Of a stretch of DNA of 64,000 nt, positions 13,806 to 22,869 are shown piece after piece (position 1 is the first letter of the stretch; the number at the start of each line of letters is the position of its first letter). The stretch spans positions 62,001 through 126,000 of the forward strand of contig JAFGHJ010000003.1 in assembly GCA_016930175.1 (NCBI GenBank), read 5' to 3'. Source of the stretch: Caldifarciminota bacterium (lineage in GTDB: Bacteria; Hydrothermota; UBA3072). Under the pieces are notes generated by a model. The model was not told the origin of the DNA. It was given only the letters and a program-made list of their open reading frames with translations, and made no database searches. A program made the translations under genes and the position numbers.

Positions 13806-16800
13806 ATGTTTTCTCTTAGAAATAAAACTATTCAAGAGCCAGGCAGGAGTTTGATTTTTCTATTCTTCCTGGTTTTTTTTCTTTTTGGAGAACAGGTTTT
13901 TGCTCAGGTAACTATAAAAAAGGATGTGCCGAGACCGCTGGAGCTTAACATCGAGGATTGTCTTATTGCGACAATCACATCGCCAGAGCCGATGACGGTA
14001 TATATGGTAGGTATGGCGACCGAAGCGGGGAGGGGACTCGTTGCCAAGGTAACCACTGAAAAATTTGAAATTAGATCAGGCATCAATCGCTATGATGCTT
14101 CTCGTGTACCTCCTCTTGCCGAGACCTGGATTGTCCCGGAATATGAGAGTCTAATAGATAGAACGGGAAAATTCCCGGAAGGCAGATACACAATCCTTAT
14201 TCGTCTTTTTACCGTAAGGGGTGAACTTTTAGACGAAGATAAGATAACCCATATGGTAGAATATCCCGAGCTAAGGCTTATAGCTCCAAGAAACGGAGCC
14301 AGTATAATTGAGCCAAATCCTATATTTCGCTGGTCAATTAGTCGTCCTATTTCCGGAACAAGATATGTGCTGAAAATATTTGAGCTGATGCCGGGACAGG
14401 CAGAAATAGCTGCCGTTTCTGAGATTCCCTTTTTCCAAAGAAGAACCACTTCGACGTCTTTTCGGTATCCTTTAAGTGCCAAAACTTTTGAAGAGGGAAA
14501 AAAGTATGCCTGGCAGATTCAGGCATTGGACGAGACAAGTTATCCTCTGGGAAGAAGCGAAGGGAAAAGTGAGATTTTCTCGTTTGGCTATAGAGAGAAA
14601 GCCAAGGAGAGCTATACTATTAAGCTTATCTCACCGGAAGAAGGCGCTGAAATTCCTTCCGGGGAAATCAAATTTTGCTGGGAGCCTATACCAGTTGAAG
14701 ATGTAAATTATACTGTCTATTACACCCATAGAGACTGTGAATCGTTAACAGAAGGTAGGCCCCATCCGTTTGCTCCTCTGCTTCCCGATTCCAATGCACA
14801 GAGTAGAATTAGAAATTTGAGGACGCGGAAACTTAATCTTGAAGCACAATTGGAACACTGGCAGAGGTATTGTGAAGAAGAGGTAGCCGAAATGCTCCGG
14901 AGCAGCCTTGAGAACCAGCAAGCCTGGGAGGAAGCAAAAGAGCAACTAAGGGCAATGGCAGATTTGCTGAAGGATGAATTAAATTTCTCCCTGCCTGAGA
15001 ACTGCCCGGTTGGTGACCGGTGTTGTAACAATAAACCCTGCTGCGAGCGACTCGATCCCTGCAAAGAAGAAGACCTGGAAACATTCAAAGAACGGGTGAG
15101 ATGTCTCCATGAGCAGATAAATTCATTCAACAATATATTTAACGGCTCTACCGCCGAATTTTTAAGACTTTATACCCGTTGGCGAAATGGCGCGGATCAC
15201 AGAGCTACTATGGATTTCTATCACGCGTATTTTTCGCTCATAGATGATATTATAGGCTTGATTACCTCCGCGCTGGATGCCATCACTCCCGATGAGGAGG
15301 AAATTCTTGAGCAAATTATTGAGGAAACTATATCGTCAGGTGCCTGTACTCTGGCGCCTGAATGGTGTGAGACTATCCAGAACGCAAGGACAGTTAAAGA
15401 AAAGATGGGTGTTGTAAAATCATTAATGGCAAGTGCCAGATCGAGCGGGGCTATGCCTCCCGCATTTATTGTCGCCATGGTTCAGGCGATGGCGCAGCAA
15501 GCTGCCAGTGCGACAGGAGTTGCTGTAGCCGGATGGGATAATTTTGCCGAAGTAATGATAAATCAACTGAGGAGCGCGTATGAAGCTCTTATATGTCTTA
15601 TCCAGCTGAATCAGGTAAGAATAGCGACTTTCAGGGATTGTGATGAATTCTGCAGAAGACTGATAGAATGTTTACGGGAAGATGTTGCGGAGATCGAAGA
15701 AGAAATTGAGGAAATAGAGGAAGAAAATGCCCGTGAGCGTACGGAATACTGGGAGGAAGAGCGCGAAAGAATCAGGGGAGAAATGGAGCAGGCTCTTTCG
15801 GAACTGGGTGAAGGATGGTATGAGAGATGCTGCAGAGAAGGGACCGGCGAAATCCGTATACCGGGTGAGGGCGAATGCGCGAGGGAAGCCGAACAGGCGT
15901 TAAGAAGAGCCCTGGGAGATAAAGCCTGCTTCATGACGTTTGTAATAAGGTGCCATCCTGACGGCAGAGTAACCATAGAACACAGTTTCCCGTCGCGTGA
16001 AAGAAGAGAAGACTGCTGTGAGCCTGAGGTGGAACGGACTGAAGGAATCGGACAGAGGGAAGGGAATCCCCCTGAAGGCGGAAATGTTTGTTATCCCGAA
16101 AGTGAAAGAGAAAGAGAGGAAATGGGAAGGCAAACACTCCCTGCCGGAGGATGGAGGGTGGAGGCTCACGACGGAGAGGGAAATCTGCTTGGCGAAAGCC
16201 CGATACGTGAACTACATCCGACAAGACCCGTACCCGGCAGAGAACCATACCATGTTCCGACTCCTGTCGATTCTGTTGAATGTGAATGCGTTGTAGCACC
16301 CCTGATAAACGGTAAGCCAATTAAGCAAAATACTACTGTTCGTAATCTTCAGAAAGGTATTAAGCAGACAATCTCCCTCAAAGGAGACTGCGGTAAAAAT
16401 TGTGTTCCCGGTCTGCAGAGCATAACGATTCAGCCTCCTCTTGTACTGAGTGCCGCATTCGGAGCACCTATAGTATTTCTGCCTCCTCCGGTTACGGTCA
16501 ACGTGCAGAAGACATTATATGATTTTCCTTACCCGGGATTGTATAAATTAGTCGTTACTCAATTTTGCGAGGATGGAAGTTCATGCGATGCCTCGTTCAA
16601 CGTTTTGATTTCGGAAAAGAGGAAAACAAAACCTCTTGACCCGGACGATATCGCCGGATTGGCTCCCGGCGGAGGGTGCGGGGACGCCTTTTGCTTAAAG
16701 GTACTCTACACTGTTTCAGGCAAGAAAGATTTCAAAACGATTTCTTTCAATACCCTCGATCTGGGGAAGAAAGGAGAACTTGAATTGCGTCTTGAGAGCA

Positions 16801-17012
16801 GTTGTTTCAAGAAATGCAAAGGCAAGAAAGTAGTTACCTGGGAAATAACAGAACCCGACGGGAAAAAGGTAATTGAAAAGGACCAGGATTTATACGAAAT
16901 AAAATATGATTTCAATAAGGTGGGCGTGTATCACATCTGTGTGATAGAAACCGCAGACTGCGGCGGTGGTACTCAAACATGCAGTAAGTTCTTGCTTATC
17001 GAGACGAAATAA
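13806..17012 (+). CDS. large secreted Cys-rich protein with Glu-rich coiled coil and two C-terminal Ig/PKD-like Cys domains
   Basis: SD ataaaggagg; N-terminal hydrophobic signal; FRWSISRP and FCWEPIPVEDVNYTVYY Fn3-like pieces; many Cys pairs. Confidence 0.75.
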   Translation: MFSLRNKTIQEPGRSLIFLFFLVFFLFGEQVFAQVTIKKDVPRPLELNIEDCLIATITSPEPMTVYMVGMATEAGRGLVAKVTTEKFEIRSGINRYDASRVPPLAETWIVPEYESLIDRTGKFPEGRYTILIRLFTVRGELLDEDKITHMVEYPELRLIAPRNGASIIEPNPIFRWSISRPISGTRYVLKIFELMPGQAEIAAVSEIPFFQRRTTSTSFRYPLSAKTFEEGKKYAWQIQALDETSYPLGRSEGKSEIFSFGYREKAKESYTIKLISPEEGAEIPSGEIKFCWEPIPVEDVNYTVYYTHRDCESLTEGRPHPFAPLLPDSNAQSRIRNLRTRKLNLEAQLEHWQRYCEEEVAEMLRSSLENQQAWEEAKEQLRAMADLLKDELNFSLPENCPVGDRCCNNKPCCERLDPCKEEDLETFKERVRCLHEQINSFNNIFNGSTAEFLRLYTRWRNGADHRATMDFYHAYFSLIDDIIGLITSALDAITPDEEEILEQIIEETISSGACTLAPEWCETIQNARTVKEKMGVVKSLMASARSSGAMPPAFIVAMVQAMAQQAASATGVAVAGWDNFAEVMINQLRSAYEALICLIQLNQVRIATFRDCDEFCRRLIECLREDVAEIEEEIEEIEEENARERTEYWEEERERIRGEMEQALSELGEGWYERCCREGTGEIRIPGEGECAREAEQALRRALGDKACFMTFVIRCHPDGRVTIEHSFPSRERREDCCEPEVERTEGIGQREGNPPEGGNVCYPESEREREEMGRQTLPAGGWRVEAHDGEGNLLGESPIRELHPTRPVPGREPYHVPTPVDSVECECVVAPLINGKPIKQNTTVRNLQKGIKQTISLKGDCGKNCVPGLQSITIQPPLVLSAAFGAPIVFLPPPVTVNVQKTLYDFPYPGLYKLVVTQFCEDGSSCDASFNVLISEKRKTKPLDPDDIAGLAPGGGCGDAFCLKVLYTVSGKKDFKTISFNTLDLGKKGELELRLESSCFKKCKGKKVVTWEITEPDGKKVIEKDQDLYEIKYDFNKVGVYHICVIETADCGGGTQTCSKFLLIETK

Positions 17013-17212: not shown

Positions 17213-17992
17213 ATGAAAACATTTAAAAATCTTTTTTTCGTTTCGTTATTAGTTTTTCTTTCCGGCTGCAGCGTGAATAAAACCCAGATCGAACAGGAAA
17301 CTTTACCTCCCGCAGTTCCAGGCGGCACGTCATACGGTGAAACAGAAGATACCGCAAAAGTTGATGCGATTACGGGAGCGACAAAAGCAGAGATGAAAAT
17401 TGTGGCTTTAGCCGGTGCGTCATACGGTGGAATTGTTCATAACCGTGAAATGGCGGGGATAAGCGGTTTTTCGGATATCGATGCCATTACCGGAGCGACA
17501 AAATTGGCTTATAATGCAGGGATTCATTCTATTTTGAAAGGGCATGGGCGTACAGTCGAAATAGGCCTTGATTATATAAAAGTCAACAAGTCTATAGAAT
17601 ATGATATGCCTTCTTTTTCAGTTAACGGAACAAGAAGTTTTGAAGCTCATCAAATTCGATTACCTTTAACATATAATTTCGGATTTTTTAAAAATAAGGT
17701 GGATCAAGCCAGATTTGTTTTTAAAATAGGTCTATCTCCGGGTTATACCTTCAGTAAAACAATAGAAGATTCCGAAGGTTCGGAAAATATGCCGGATTAC
17801 GAGTTTTCCAGTTGGGATGTGTGTGGAAATTTTGGATTTTATTACTATCCTTTCAATTTCAAACAGGATTACAGGATGGGATTTTATCTCGATTTTTGCC
17901 GCGGACTAAAGGCATATAACGATATTTACCACGAATCATGGACGCAAGGCGGGAATGCCCTTATGAATTTCGGCGTCGTCTTCGAACCTTAA
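17213..17992 (+). CDS. lipoprotein with two DAITGAT flavinylation-like motifs and a small beta-barrel-like C-terminal part
   Basis: lipobox FLSGCS; VDAITGATK at 17363-17383 (motif) and IDAITGATK at 17480-17500; amphipathic beta-rich C-terminal part. Confidence 0.75.
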   Translation: MKTFKNLFFVSLLVFLSGCSVNKTQIEQETLPPAVPGGTSYGETEDTAKVDAITGATKAEMKIVALAGASYGGIVHNREMAGISGFSDIDAITGATKLAYNAGIHSILKGHGRTVEIGLDYIKVNKSIEYDMPSFSVNGTRSFEAHQIRLPLTYNFGFFKNKVDQARFVFKIGLSPGYTFSKTIEDSEGSENMPDYEFSSWDVCGNFGFYYYPFNFKQDYRMGFYLDFCRGLKAYNDIYHESWTQGGNALMNFGVVFEP

Positions 17993-18387: not shown

Positions 18388-19191
18388 ATGAAAAAGGTAA
18401 AATGGGTAGTATGTAGCTCGTTAGTACTTTTTTTGTTCTTGCCCGGTATGGTGAGGGGTGAAGAGATAGGCATACTTCCTTTTAGAACGACAGGAGTTGA
18501 AATGTATGTTACCGATGCGTTTTATGATCTCCTGGAATCCGAACTCGCTTATTATGACCACAGAGTGGTTACGCCCTACGAAATAGAGCATTATCTTGGG
18601 CACAGGGTGGTATCTTATAACAAAGATTATGCTGCCGATTATGGAAGGTCGTTGGGGCTTGAGAAAGTGATATTTGGCTCTATAACCAGATTAGGCGAGA
18701 AATATATTATTACAGTCGAAGTCGTAAAATCCAGGACAGGAGAAATACTTCTTAGCGATAGAATAACTCTGGATTCTGAGGATTACCTGGAGGAATACAC
18801 GTATAGTCTGGCAGAAGCTATCGAAGAAGACGTTTATGGAAATGTTGTTTATTATGGCCCCGACTATAGCAGAACTGTTACCCACGTCTATATCGGAAAT
18901 TGCTGGCGGCCACGCATTATATGGAGGAGACCATGCAGAAGTTTAATTACCGTGAGATTACCTTTAATTAATATAAATCTCGGAAAGCCTCACCATGTTG
19001 TTCATAGGTCGTCCCCGCCAAAGACGAAAACCGTTTATGTGAAGACGGACCCCAGAAAAGATGAACATGGAAAAACAAATAAAGGGAAAACCGACCACGG
19101 GAAATCAAAGGACAAAAAATCCGATCAGGGAAAATCGAAGAGCGGAAAATCCCATCGCGATGATGGTGGGGCGAAGAAGGGAAGGAGATAG
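18388..19191 (+). CDS. secreted protein with CsgG/TolB-N-like domain and Lys/Gly/Ser-rich C-terminal tail
   Basis: GEEIGILPFRTTGVEMYVTDAFYDLLESEL; VIFGSITRLGEKYIITVEVVKSRTGEIL; tail GKTNKGKTDHGKSKDKKSDQGKSKSGKS; SD aaaggaggtc. Confidence 0.75.
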   Translation: MKKVKWVVCSSLVLFLFLPGMVRGEEIGILPFRTTGVEMYVTDAFYDLLESELAYYDHRVVTPYEIEHYLGHRVVSYNKDYAADYGRSLGLEKVIFGSITRLGEKYIITVEVVKSRTGEILLSDRITLDSEDYLEEYTYSLAEAIEEDVYGNVVYYGPDYSRTVTHVYIGNCWRPRIIWRRPCRSLITVRLPLININLGKPHHVVHRSSPPKTKTVYVKTDPRKDEHGKTNKGKTDHGKSKDKKSDQGKSKSGKSHRDDGGAKKGRR

Positions 19192-19348: not shown

Positions 19349-20920
19349 TTACTGTTTTACCATTTTTGTGGCACCTGACAGAGCATCTATATTAACCGTT
19401 GAATCGAATTTTGCCTGGACGGCCGCTTTATGGGCAGCCCTTATAAGATTCCAGTGACTGACCTTTACGGGTCCATTGATCAATTCCGGAACGTTATAGT
19501 TCATTATATATGTTTCATAGAATTCCGGGTTTTTTTGAGGCATTAAAAACGACTTATGCGCATTCCCCAGTGTATCGACGTAACTAAAATATAATCTTGA
19601 ACAGAGTCCGTCTCTCCTTTTACTGGCGAACACGAACCACCGGCTGTTGCTCGACCAGCTATGAAAACTTTCGCTGTGTTCGCTATTGATATCAAGTTTC
19701 CGGTACTTCTTTGTCTTTAGTTCCAACATATAAAGGTCACTCGACGGATAATGTATGGAAAAATAACCGCAATCACTCATACAGAATAATAGATATTTAC
19801 CATCCGGAGAAGTTCTTGGGAAAGAAACGCTCTTCCCTGTTTCTCTTGAACTGAGAATTGTTTCTACGTCGTCCCAGCGATTAGTTTCAACATCATAACC
19901 GATGCGCATAAGATCATATTTTGATAGATTGTATTCTTTCTTGCTTACCCGTTCAGGCCCGCTGCAGAAATACAAATACTTACCATCGGGACTCCAATTA
20001 GGCAGATTCTCCATTCGCTTTGTTGAAACTTTCGGCGATGTTGTTACTGTATTCTTTTGTATGTCGTAGACAACCAGGTCGGAAGCCAGATCCCATACAA
20101 AAATACTCTTATCTTTCCCCGCGTGAAAAGACTGAACTACTTTATTAACTGAAAAGGCGATATGATTCCCATCAGGATGCCAGGCAGGATAAACGCCCGC
20201 AGACATTGTATATTCTGTTCCGGTGTTTACTTTATTCAATTGTCCGTTTTTAAGTAGCATCGTACCGCCATATTTGTCCCTCATGTGAAACATCATAGTT
20301 TCCGGATTGTTATTAGAAAAAGAATGACAATTCATGCAGTTCTGACCGACCGGTCTATTAGTGAAGATGGCGGATTCATCGAAATTTTCGATATTACGCT
20401 GATAAATACCCATTTCCCGCCACAATACATATCCCAGGTTTATCAACCGGTAAGCAACGTGACTGTCAATTTCCTCTTTAGCAATTTTGTTTTCTATGGT
20501 CCGAAACTTATTCCACCTGTTATTATGATCCTTTATATATATAGAGATATTCAGTTCCTCGCCTCGATTTTCCGACAAAATCTCTTTCCATTTTTTTATG
20601 GGAATCATCACAATTTTTTTATTGGCGTTTAAACGAATACGATCACTGTCTTTATTATTAACATGAATATCGATATAGAATTCCGTTCCTTCCTCATTAA
20701 TCTTAAAATTCAAAGGGGCTATGTTGGGAGGTATGACAATACCTGTATAGTCAGGATCTATATTCGGTAGACGGTCGATTTCCGTATAGTCCCCGGGAAC
20801 TACCTTTCCGCAATTTTGTAAGCATAAGACAATAAAAATAACTCCCAAAAAAGCGTTACTTATGGATTTATAAAATAACCTCATCGATCTTTTTCCTCTT
20901 TTATTCAAGTTCTGTTTCAT
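19349..20920 (-). CDS. PD40/TolB-like propeller protein with CxxCH site and C-terminal DALSGAT motif
   Basis: PVGQNCMNCHSFSNNNPETMMFHMRDKYGG; repeated SPDGKYLLFCMSD-type blades; C-terminus TVNIDALSGATKMVKQ; lipoprotein-like LQNCGK. Confidence 0.8.
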   Translation of the reverse strand: MKQNLNKRGKRSMRLFYKSISNAFLGVIFIVLCLQNCGKVVPGDYTEIDRLPNIDPDYTGIVIPPNIAPLNFKINEEGTEFYIDIHVNNKDSDRIRLNANKKIVMIPIKKWKEILSENRGEELNISIYIKDHNNRWNKFRTIENKIAKEEIDSHVAYRLINLGYVLWREMGIYQRNIENFDESAIFTNRPVGQNCMNCHSFSNNNPETMMFHMRDKYGGTMLLKNGQLNKVNTGTEYTMSAGVYPAWHPDGNHIAFSVNKVVQSFHAGKDKSIFVWDLASDLVVYDIQKNTVTTSPKVSTKRMENLPNWSPDGKYLYFCSGPERVSKKEYNLSKYDLMRIGYDVETNRWDDVETILSSRETGKSVSFPRTSPDGKYLLFCMSDCGYFSIHYPSSDLYMLELKTKKYRKLDINSEHSESFHSWSSNSRWFVFASKRRDGLCSRLYFSYVDTLGNAHKSFLMPQKNPEFYETYIMNYNVPELINGPVKVSHWNLIRAAHKAAVQAKFDSTVNIDALSGATKMVKQ

Positions 20921-22769
20921 CTGGTTTAATATAAAGTGAATAATACCAATATGTATTATAGAATCCTTTCTTTAGAGCTTCTTTTGCTTGTGCTTTATCT
21001 GCGAATGAAGAAAGAATACTATTGAACTGGTCGAATTGTTCAACTGTCTGCTGATCAATACTATAGTCAATGGTAAAATCTATTGATGGGTATGCGAGCC
21101 TACTTACTAATATTGCTTCTTCTATATGGTGCGGATATTTTCCATAGTCTAATTCTTTAAATTGACCGAGATATTCCAGCAAATCCTCTAACCTAAATTC
21201 AAGCAAATAATATGCCATTAAATATTCAAAAGCCATTTTGTTGTTTTTGTTTTCCTTTAATAGTTCAATTAAATCCATATCCGCCCTTTCGCCGATGGAA
21301 ATAAAAAAATCGAATTTCGGGGTGAATTGAAGTTTCGATTGGATTAAACTATCGGATTTTATTAATGACTCATTAAAAAGATAGTTCCTGTAATGCTTAA
21401 CCCACTTTTTATGCAAGATACTCTTGTTGAGGATATCCAGGAATTTTTTTGCGATGTCATATTCTTCGTTGATGATGTTGGTCATAATAATTCTTTTTAG
21501 CATTCTTGGATTATATCCGAAGTGTGTTTGCGCCTCATAAGCCATAACTTGTGCCGCTTTTATATGCCCTAAATCAAAGTATATGTCACTGGTGATTATT
21601 GCCACTGGCCTGGGTACTCCTTCAAGAAATAAAACATCCTTCCCTACGATTTGAGGATAGTCGAATAGATTATCAAGTAATTGACCTGTATGATATAATG
21701 CTCTATTTACATTAAAGATTATCTGAACAGTAAAATCATCCATTCCCCGGGAAACACTCAAAAGCTCCTCCCACCTGCCCTGTTCCGCAAGATAATCGAT
21801 CTGAACCTTCTTTTTTTCTCGCCATTCGAAAGAAAATCTTAGTATTAAGAGAGAAGCAAGTAAAATAAAAATCGATTCCATTAAAGTATCAAATATTCCT
21901 TTCCATGAACTATTTCGTTTCTTAATCTTTCGTTTTTTAGTTTTTCGTTTCTTAACCTTTCTTTCTCTAATCTCAGCTTTGATATATTTTAAATAAACGA
22001 AAAGGGCTATTTGTAGCACCGGAGGTGTAAGGAAAAACAAATAAAAATATAAGTTCAGGTTATAATTGAAAGGCCAGTTATGGAATCCACGGGGTACAAT
22101 GTAAAGAAATGCCTCTTTAAGATTAATCATAAACAAATACCGCGACGCAATATATGCGTATATAAAATATATTGCTACATTTAGCCCTGCATAAATATAT
22201 TTTCTCCGCTCTTCCCGTAAAAGTAATTCGTGCAACGTACAAAGCACGATGTAAAATAAATATGCCCATCCACCCAGAATATAATAAATTAAAGCGGATA
22301 GAGGAATAAAAAATATTTTATGACGATGTGGAATCTTTACATAAGAAAAGAAAAAAATAAGAGCCAAAAAATATTTAAAAGTTATTAACAGGGGAAAATC
22401 ATAATCGTTTTGTATAATTAACAAGAAAATAACAGGCAGAAAAGAAATAATCAAAGAATATTCGGAATGTTCGATTTTTTCGATAAGTTTGTAAACAATA
22501 ATGAGAATAGAGAGGGAAACAGCCGCAATTACTAAGGCTCCAAGCAGATTAAAATAGAAAAACTGCAAAAAAAACTGAGTTATCAACTCTGCCGGACCTC
22601 CGGGATACAATAGAAATTCTTTCAGGTAAATTTTATAGAAGAGAAACATAGGCTGGTGGTGATGATAGTACAGGGATGAATCAAAAACTAAAAGATAATA
22701 GAAAAATAAAAACAAAAAGAAAGTTATAAAAGAAAAATTTGGATTACGGATAATTTCTTTTATTTTCAT
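20901..22769 (-). CDS. multi-pass membrane protein, DUF6057-like, with helical-repeat C-terminal region
   Basis: about ten hydrophobic segments then a soluble TPR-like part; second Met at 22769 has gagga SD; overlaps the downstream cytochrome-like gene. Confidence 0.65.
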   Translation of the reverse strand: MKIKEIIRNPNFSFITFFLFLFFYYLLVFDSSLYYHHHQPMFLFYKIYLKEFLLYPGGPAELITQFFLQFFYFNLLGALVIAAVSLSILIIVYKLIEKIEHSEYSLIISFLPVIFLLIIQNDYDFPLLITFKYFLALIFFFSYVKIPHRHKIFFIPLSALIYYILGGWAYLFYIVLCTLHELLLREERRKYIYAGLNVAIYFIYAYIASRYLFMINLKEAFLYIVPRGFHNWPFNYNLNLYFYLFFLTPPVLQIALFVYLKYIKAEIRERKVKKRKTKKRKIKKRNSSWKGIFDTLMESIFILLASLLILRFSFEWREKKKVQIDYLAEQGRWEELLSVSRGMDDFTVQIIFNVNRALYHTGQLLDNLFDYPQIVGKDVLFLEGVPRPVAIITSDIYFDLGHIKAAQVMAYEAQTHFGYNPRMLKRIIMTNIINEEYDIAKKFLDILNKSILHKKWVKHYRNYLFNESLIKSDSLIQSKLQFTPKFDFFISIGERADMDLIELLKENKNNKMAFEYLMAYYLLEFRLEDLLEYLGQFKELDYGKYPHHIEEAILVSRLAYPSIDFTIDYSIDQQTVEQFDQFNSILSSFADKAQAKEALKKGFYNTYWYYSLYIKPDETELE

Positions 22770-22869
22770 AAATTCCTCAATCATTAGAAATTAAAAAAGA
22801 GTATGCGTTTAGTCAATCCCCCCCAATGGAGTAATCGGCTGTCAGCTTACGGCTTACGGCTAAAACCAA

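Follow-up and report, generated by a model that had tools for sequence, protein, structure and literature searches.

The lipoprotein gene and its features

The window (the whole stretch of 64,000 nucleotides that was analysed) contains a gene for a predicted lipoprotein, P0001, in which the same short motif stands twice. On the opposite strand, with its end 1.4 kb from this gene, lies a gene for a PD40 protein with a motif of the same type at its C-terminus. The features are as follows.

17213..17992, + strand: lipoprotein P0001, an open reading frame of 259 aa
17258..17269, + strand: lipobox LSGC, aa 16-19, read from the sequence; predicted mature N-terminus at Cys19
17363..17383, + strand: copy 1 of the motif, DAITGAT (aa 51-57), in the linker that precedes the barrel-like part; Thr57 is the predicted acceptor of FMN
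17402..17989, + strand: barrel-like part (aa 64-259), in which some eight amphipathic strands can be made out by eye; last residues FGVVFEP
17480..17500, + strand: copy 2 of the motif, DAITGAT (aa 90-96), ahead of the second predicted strand; Thr96 is the predicted acceptor of FMN
19349..20920, - strand: PD40 propeller protein that has a haem-type motif (CMNCH) and carries the tag NIDALSGATKMVKQ at its C-terminus, with DALSGAT at 19387-19367
20901..22784, - strand: membrane protein matching DUF6057 (Pfam PF19529, E 8e-113), paired with the PD40 protein

The N-terminus of P0001, MKTFKNLFFVSLLVFLSGC, reads as a lipoprotein signal in the translated frame. Under the established lipobox rule P0001 should be exported and lipidated, and it is probably located in the outer membrane. 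The original prediction had placed the protein at 17213-17992 with an FLSGC lipobox, and both the open reading frame and the sequence bear this out. The flanking genes (13806-17012 and 18388-19191, both + strand) match nothing in Pfam or NCBIfam above cut-off. A promoter scan gave a result at chance level.

The two DAITGAT copies

The two DAITGAT copies lie exactly 39 codons apart, as had been reported, and P0001 thus carries the ApbE substrate motif D-x-x-[ST]-G-A-[ST] twice. They are part of an 8-mer, DAITGATK (aa 51-58 and 90-97), in which 22 of the 24 bases over eight codons are identical and both differences are synonymous. The three residues on each side of the motif all differ between the copies. 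A second common block, GTSYG in one segment and GASYG in the other, recurs after 30 codons. Because the SYG spacing is 30 codons and the motif spacing 39, the two segments are read as related but offset by a 9-residue indel. Their local similarity was equalled in 1 of 20,000 shuffles and, with the 8-mer masked, in 271 of 20,000, which is still unusual. We read the segments as a partial internal duplication in which the motif has been held constant; with two copies in one genome, selection and recency are inseparable.

Three coding patterns of the motif type are present in the window versus none in 100 shuffles. Across the 2.34-Mb genome the D-[AG]-x-[ST]-G-A-T-type codon pattern occurs four times (reversed control, none). 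Two of these are in P0001, the third lies at the C-terminal end of the PD40 protein (19349-20920) and the fourth is in a protein encoded on contig C47. The exact DAITGATK coding pattern is confined to the two sites in P0001 among 147 genomes of the phylum, and the motif pair is therefore beyond chance.

Domains, relatives and fold

The absence of a recognisable FMN_bind domain, claimed in the original prediction, is upheld by the Pfam profile search. The best FMN_bind (PF04205) match in P0001 scores 14.6 bits against a cut-off of 22 and covers 16 residues at copy 1 only (aa 43-58, profile positions 48-63 of 77). Full FMN_bind domains are ruled out, as this match stays below the threshold. DUF3570 proteins, which are probably outer-membrane barrels, share with P0001 the presence of two ApbE motifs per protein. 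However, P0001 has no Pfam match to DUF3570 (PF12094) up to E 1, which rules out membership, and the 147 genomes of the phylum contain no DUF3570 protein above cut-off. None of the genes of a DUF3570-type cluster (apbE, DUF4266, thioredoxin-like) is among the neighbours of P0001 that were scanned, and P0001 has no profile match to DUF2271 (PF10029).

P0001 has no orthologue in the 147 genomes of the phylum, bar one homologue in G131 that is 29% identical. It has no relative in its own genus or family; in the same-genus genome, which is without the gene, different genes adjoin the orthologue of the PD40 gene. The G131 homologue (P0003, 226 aa) is lipoprotein-like, and its alignment spans aa 97-237, with E 2e-16 in the pairwise comparison and 4e-13 when the genomes were searched. 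It has no DAITGAT: copy 2 aligns to a seven-residue gap and copy 1 lies beside a missing stretch. As this is a single homologue, the motifs look like either gains in the lineage of the window or losses in G131. The original prediction had allowed that motifs unconserved in orthologues would speak against it, and this is partly so, given one distant homologue without the motifs and a same-genus genome without the gene.

Wider relatives were absent from GTDB (searched with peptide patterns), plasmids and PDB. Weak tblastn matches in G009 and G062 were rejected as relatives because the frames are short and lie opposite longer genes or next to them. Relatives were judged without the weak tblastn matches in G144, G029, G071, G102 and G069.

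The strand-like alternation of aa 99-259 exceeds all of 500 shuffles, and the same score for the G131 homologue is not above its shuffles (p 0.17). By eye the strands of P0001 have alternating short and long connections and an aromatic end, FGVVFEP, a pattern that matches the anatomy of small outer-membrane barrels. No Pfam barrel family matches P0001 or its homologue. Two single-sequence AlphaFold2 runs on P0001 were uninformative (mean pLDDT 37 and 34). The earlier description of the domain as beta-barrel-like is thus plausible from the alternation and the homologue, and finds no support in the structure models. If the domain is a barrel, one would expect copy 1 in the periplasmic linker and copy 2 in the first of the outer loops.

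ApbE and other candidate substrates in the genome

The original prediction had staked itself on an ApbE in the genome, and one is present on contig C35 (P0004, 316 aa). It scores 225.7 bits, above the Pfam cut-off, over profile positions 34-266, and is near FAD:protein FMN transferases of solved structure, among them 7esa (E 7e-42). Its N-terminal hydrophobic anchor suggests that it is probably extracytosolic. The organism therefore has an ApbE in the same compartment as P0001, the compartment being assigned by sequence only (lipobox and hydrophobic anchor). The apbE gene is on another contig than P0001 and shares no operon with it. Downstream of apbE (L012:4346-7103, contig C35) are genes for radical SAM, small NusG-II-like and Gx-transporter-like proteins, as named from their sequences.

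Other exported proteins carry motifs of this kind. An Rnf cluster on the contig of the window encodes an RnfG in which DAITSAT accompanies a proper FMN_bind domain. On contig C47 of the same genome, a secreted protein with a T9SS sorting tail (L009:867-1910) has DAVSGAT and a sub-threshold DUF2271 match, and is a probable further substrate of ApbE. Together with the tagged PD40 proteins described below, RnfG and this DUF2271-like protein are probable extracytosolic targets of ApbE.

Three PD40/CxxCH proteins of the genome end in ApbE-type tags (DALSGAT, DAVTSAT and DMAITGAT). Besides the one in the window there are two paralogues on contig C35, 8-13 kb from apbE, with the tails DLDAVTSATMKDEEGG.. 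and VDMAITGATPKKENRE; a gene adjoining them looks like ResB/CcsA cytochrome c biogenesis. The orthologue in the same-genus genome is 68% identical and keeps the tag (tail NIDALSGATKIVR), and a second PD40 copy in this relative is without a tag. Each PD40 protein is paired with a DUF6057-type membrane protein; the tagged ones are at window 19349-20920, L029, L031 and L028. Homologues in Bacteroidales (a Bacteroidaceae MAG, Parabacteroides and Phocaeicola) also adjoin DUF6057 where annotated, and have kept the haem motif with the tag absent. A Bacteroides fragilis frame was left out of the tail comparison because its end appears altered. The untagged Bacteroidales homologues rule out the tail tag as an old feature of the family, and the tags therefore appear limited to the genus within the sample taken. 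The tagged PD40/CxxCH proteins are possible natural flavin-plus-haem proteins.

A putative flavin-tagged lipoprotein

We lean slightly towards an explanation in which P0001 is a lipid-anchored, barrel-like electron relay of the outer membrane, with FMN placed by ApbE on Thr57, Thr96 or both. It is supported by the two perfect consensus motifs, the ApbE, the lipobox and the further candidate substrates that the genome encodes. The absence of the gene from the same-genus genome and from the family, the motif-free homologue, the low confidence of the structure models and the location of apbE on another contig count against it, and the copies may be nearly identical because of a recent small duplication. 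The seven-residue motif alone suffices for ApbE, and works best at termini and less well in surface loops (PMC12052999). In one case ApbE failed to modify a target that had already folded, whereas co-expression worked (PMC10722498). These two observations argue for modification of the newly exported protein and make Thr57 the likelier site.

A lipid-anchored, barrel-like protein would thus have gained two minimal recognition tags for ApbE. Once exported and lipidated, and still unfolded in the periplasm, it would meet the membrane-anchored ApbE, which would move FMN from FAD onto Thr57 in the flexible N-terminal linker and possibly onto Thr96 in the loop before the second predicted strand. The tethered flavins could then carry electrons at the outer membrane, with Rnf or the tagged PD40/CxxCH proteins as a possible donor. 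The flavin attachment, the barrel topology, and the redox role with its partners are what we infer. Flavinylation of P0001 is somewhat favoured on balance; its function is largely deduced, and a flavin with no known pocket might be functionally idle. The original proposal of a di-flavin lipoprotein stands in part, in that the ApbE consensus fits, ApbE is present, export and lipidation are predicted, FMN_bind is absent and the bare 7-mer suffices (PMC12052999), and is weakened by the absence of the motifs from the distant homologue.

In another explanation Thr57 alone is modified, and copy 2, which would lie in a folded segment of the barrel, is a side effect of a partial internal duplication spanning some 30-39 codons. 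The SYG and DAITGATK blocks common to the copies, with their 9-residue shift and 22 of 24 identical motif bases, would fit such an event, and flavinylation is poorer at loop motifs than at terminal tags (PMC12052999). However, every motif residue is kept in copy 2 where the flanks have diverged, and we hold this outcome to be unlikely. It is also improbable, in our estimation, that the motifs are unused and that P0001 is an orphan barrel lipoprotein, free of flavin, in which chance or inherited sequence was duplicated. An unused pair would suit a protein that has no orthologues, a homologue without the motif and no apbE nearby, but the exact 8-mer is otherwise absent from the 147 genomes and the ApbE consensus fits at all positions. 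Predicted export, an encoded ApbE and tags on other exported proteins likewise argue against idle motifs.

An origin from two FMN_bind domains in front of a barrel, of which only decayed or truncated remains are left, would account for the weak profile match at copy 1 (aa 43-58). Copy 2 has no such match, however, and about 32 residues precede each motif (Cys19 to copy 1; copy 1 to copy 2) against an FMN-bind1 core of about 120 residues (PMC11334425). This origin is very improbable.

Implications

Viewed together, the lipoprotein tags and the tails of the haem-type proteins suggest a grafting of flavin tags onto exported proteins that are unrelated to one another. A bolder and tentative idea, which we think rather less than probable, is that the genus repeatedly added bare ApbE tags to unrelated, pocketless extracytosolic proteins, at the tails of CxxCH propellers and twice in a barrel-like lipoprotein. 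This would yield flavin-tagged haem and outer-membrane proteins, with the lipoprotein flavins in a periplasmic linker and a surface loop. Searches for the domains FMN_bind, DUF2271 and DUF3570 are the usual way to find ApbE substrates. Such searches miss substrates if nature uses bare seven-residue tags on unrelated lipoproteins and haem-type proteins, and covalent flavins may then be portable redox groups, much like haem motifs.

Comparison with known systems

A scan of GTDB for paired motifs, limited to motifs starting with GAT and 27-47 codons apart, returned three stretches, none of which resembles P0001. Only one (L021) is convincing; L023 is low-complexity and L022 is without a nameable open frame. 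The convincing stretch (L021:1504-2802, JAFYQH010000020.1, from a Bacteroidaceae MAG) encodes a PepSY-TM protein in which DA[VA]S[GSA]AT stands five times in tandem, a possible multi-flavin insert. Like P0001 it repeats the motif outside FMN_bind, but the repeats recur every 10 residues in the linker of a transmembrane protein and the sequence is unrelated.

Multi-flavinylated FMN_bind proteins are exported and have more than one candidate site for covalent FMN, as P0001 does, but they repeat whole FMN_bind domains and P0001 has none. FMN_red proteins have short unstructured C-terminal extensions with one or two flavinylation motifs, the number being similar to that in P0001 (PMC11334425). They have a native flavin pocket beside the tag, whereas none is known in P0001. 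The synthetic Flavin-tag is likewise a bare D-x-x-[ST]-G-A-T outside FMN_bind (PMC12052999, PMC10722498). It is engineered, whereas the putative tag of P0001 is natural, doubled and placed in a lipoprotein.

A further likeness in motif arrangement is to DUF3570, which also has two ApbE motifs outside any FMN_bind domain. These proteins are about 420 aa long and clustered with apbE, DUF4266 and thioredoxin-like genes, whereas P0001 has 259 aa, a lipobox and no such neighbours. In the DUF3570 protein of Chlorobium luteolum, which has no FMN_bind domain, both of the two sites are modified (PMC8238504), and a two-motif ApbE substrate outside FMN_bind is thus already known.
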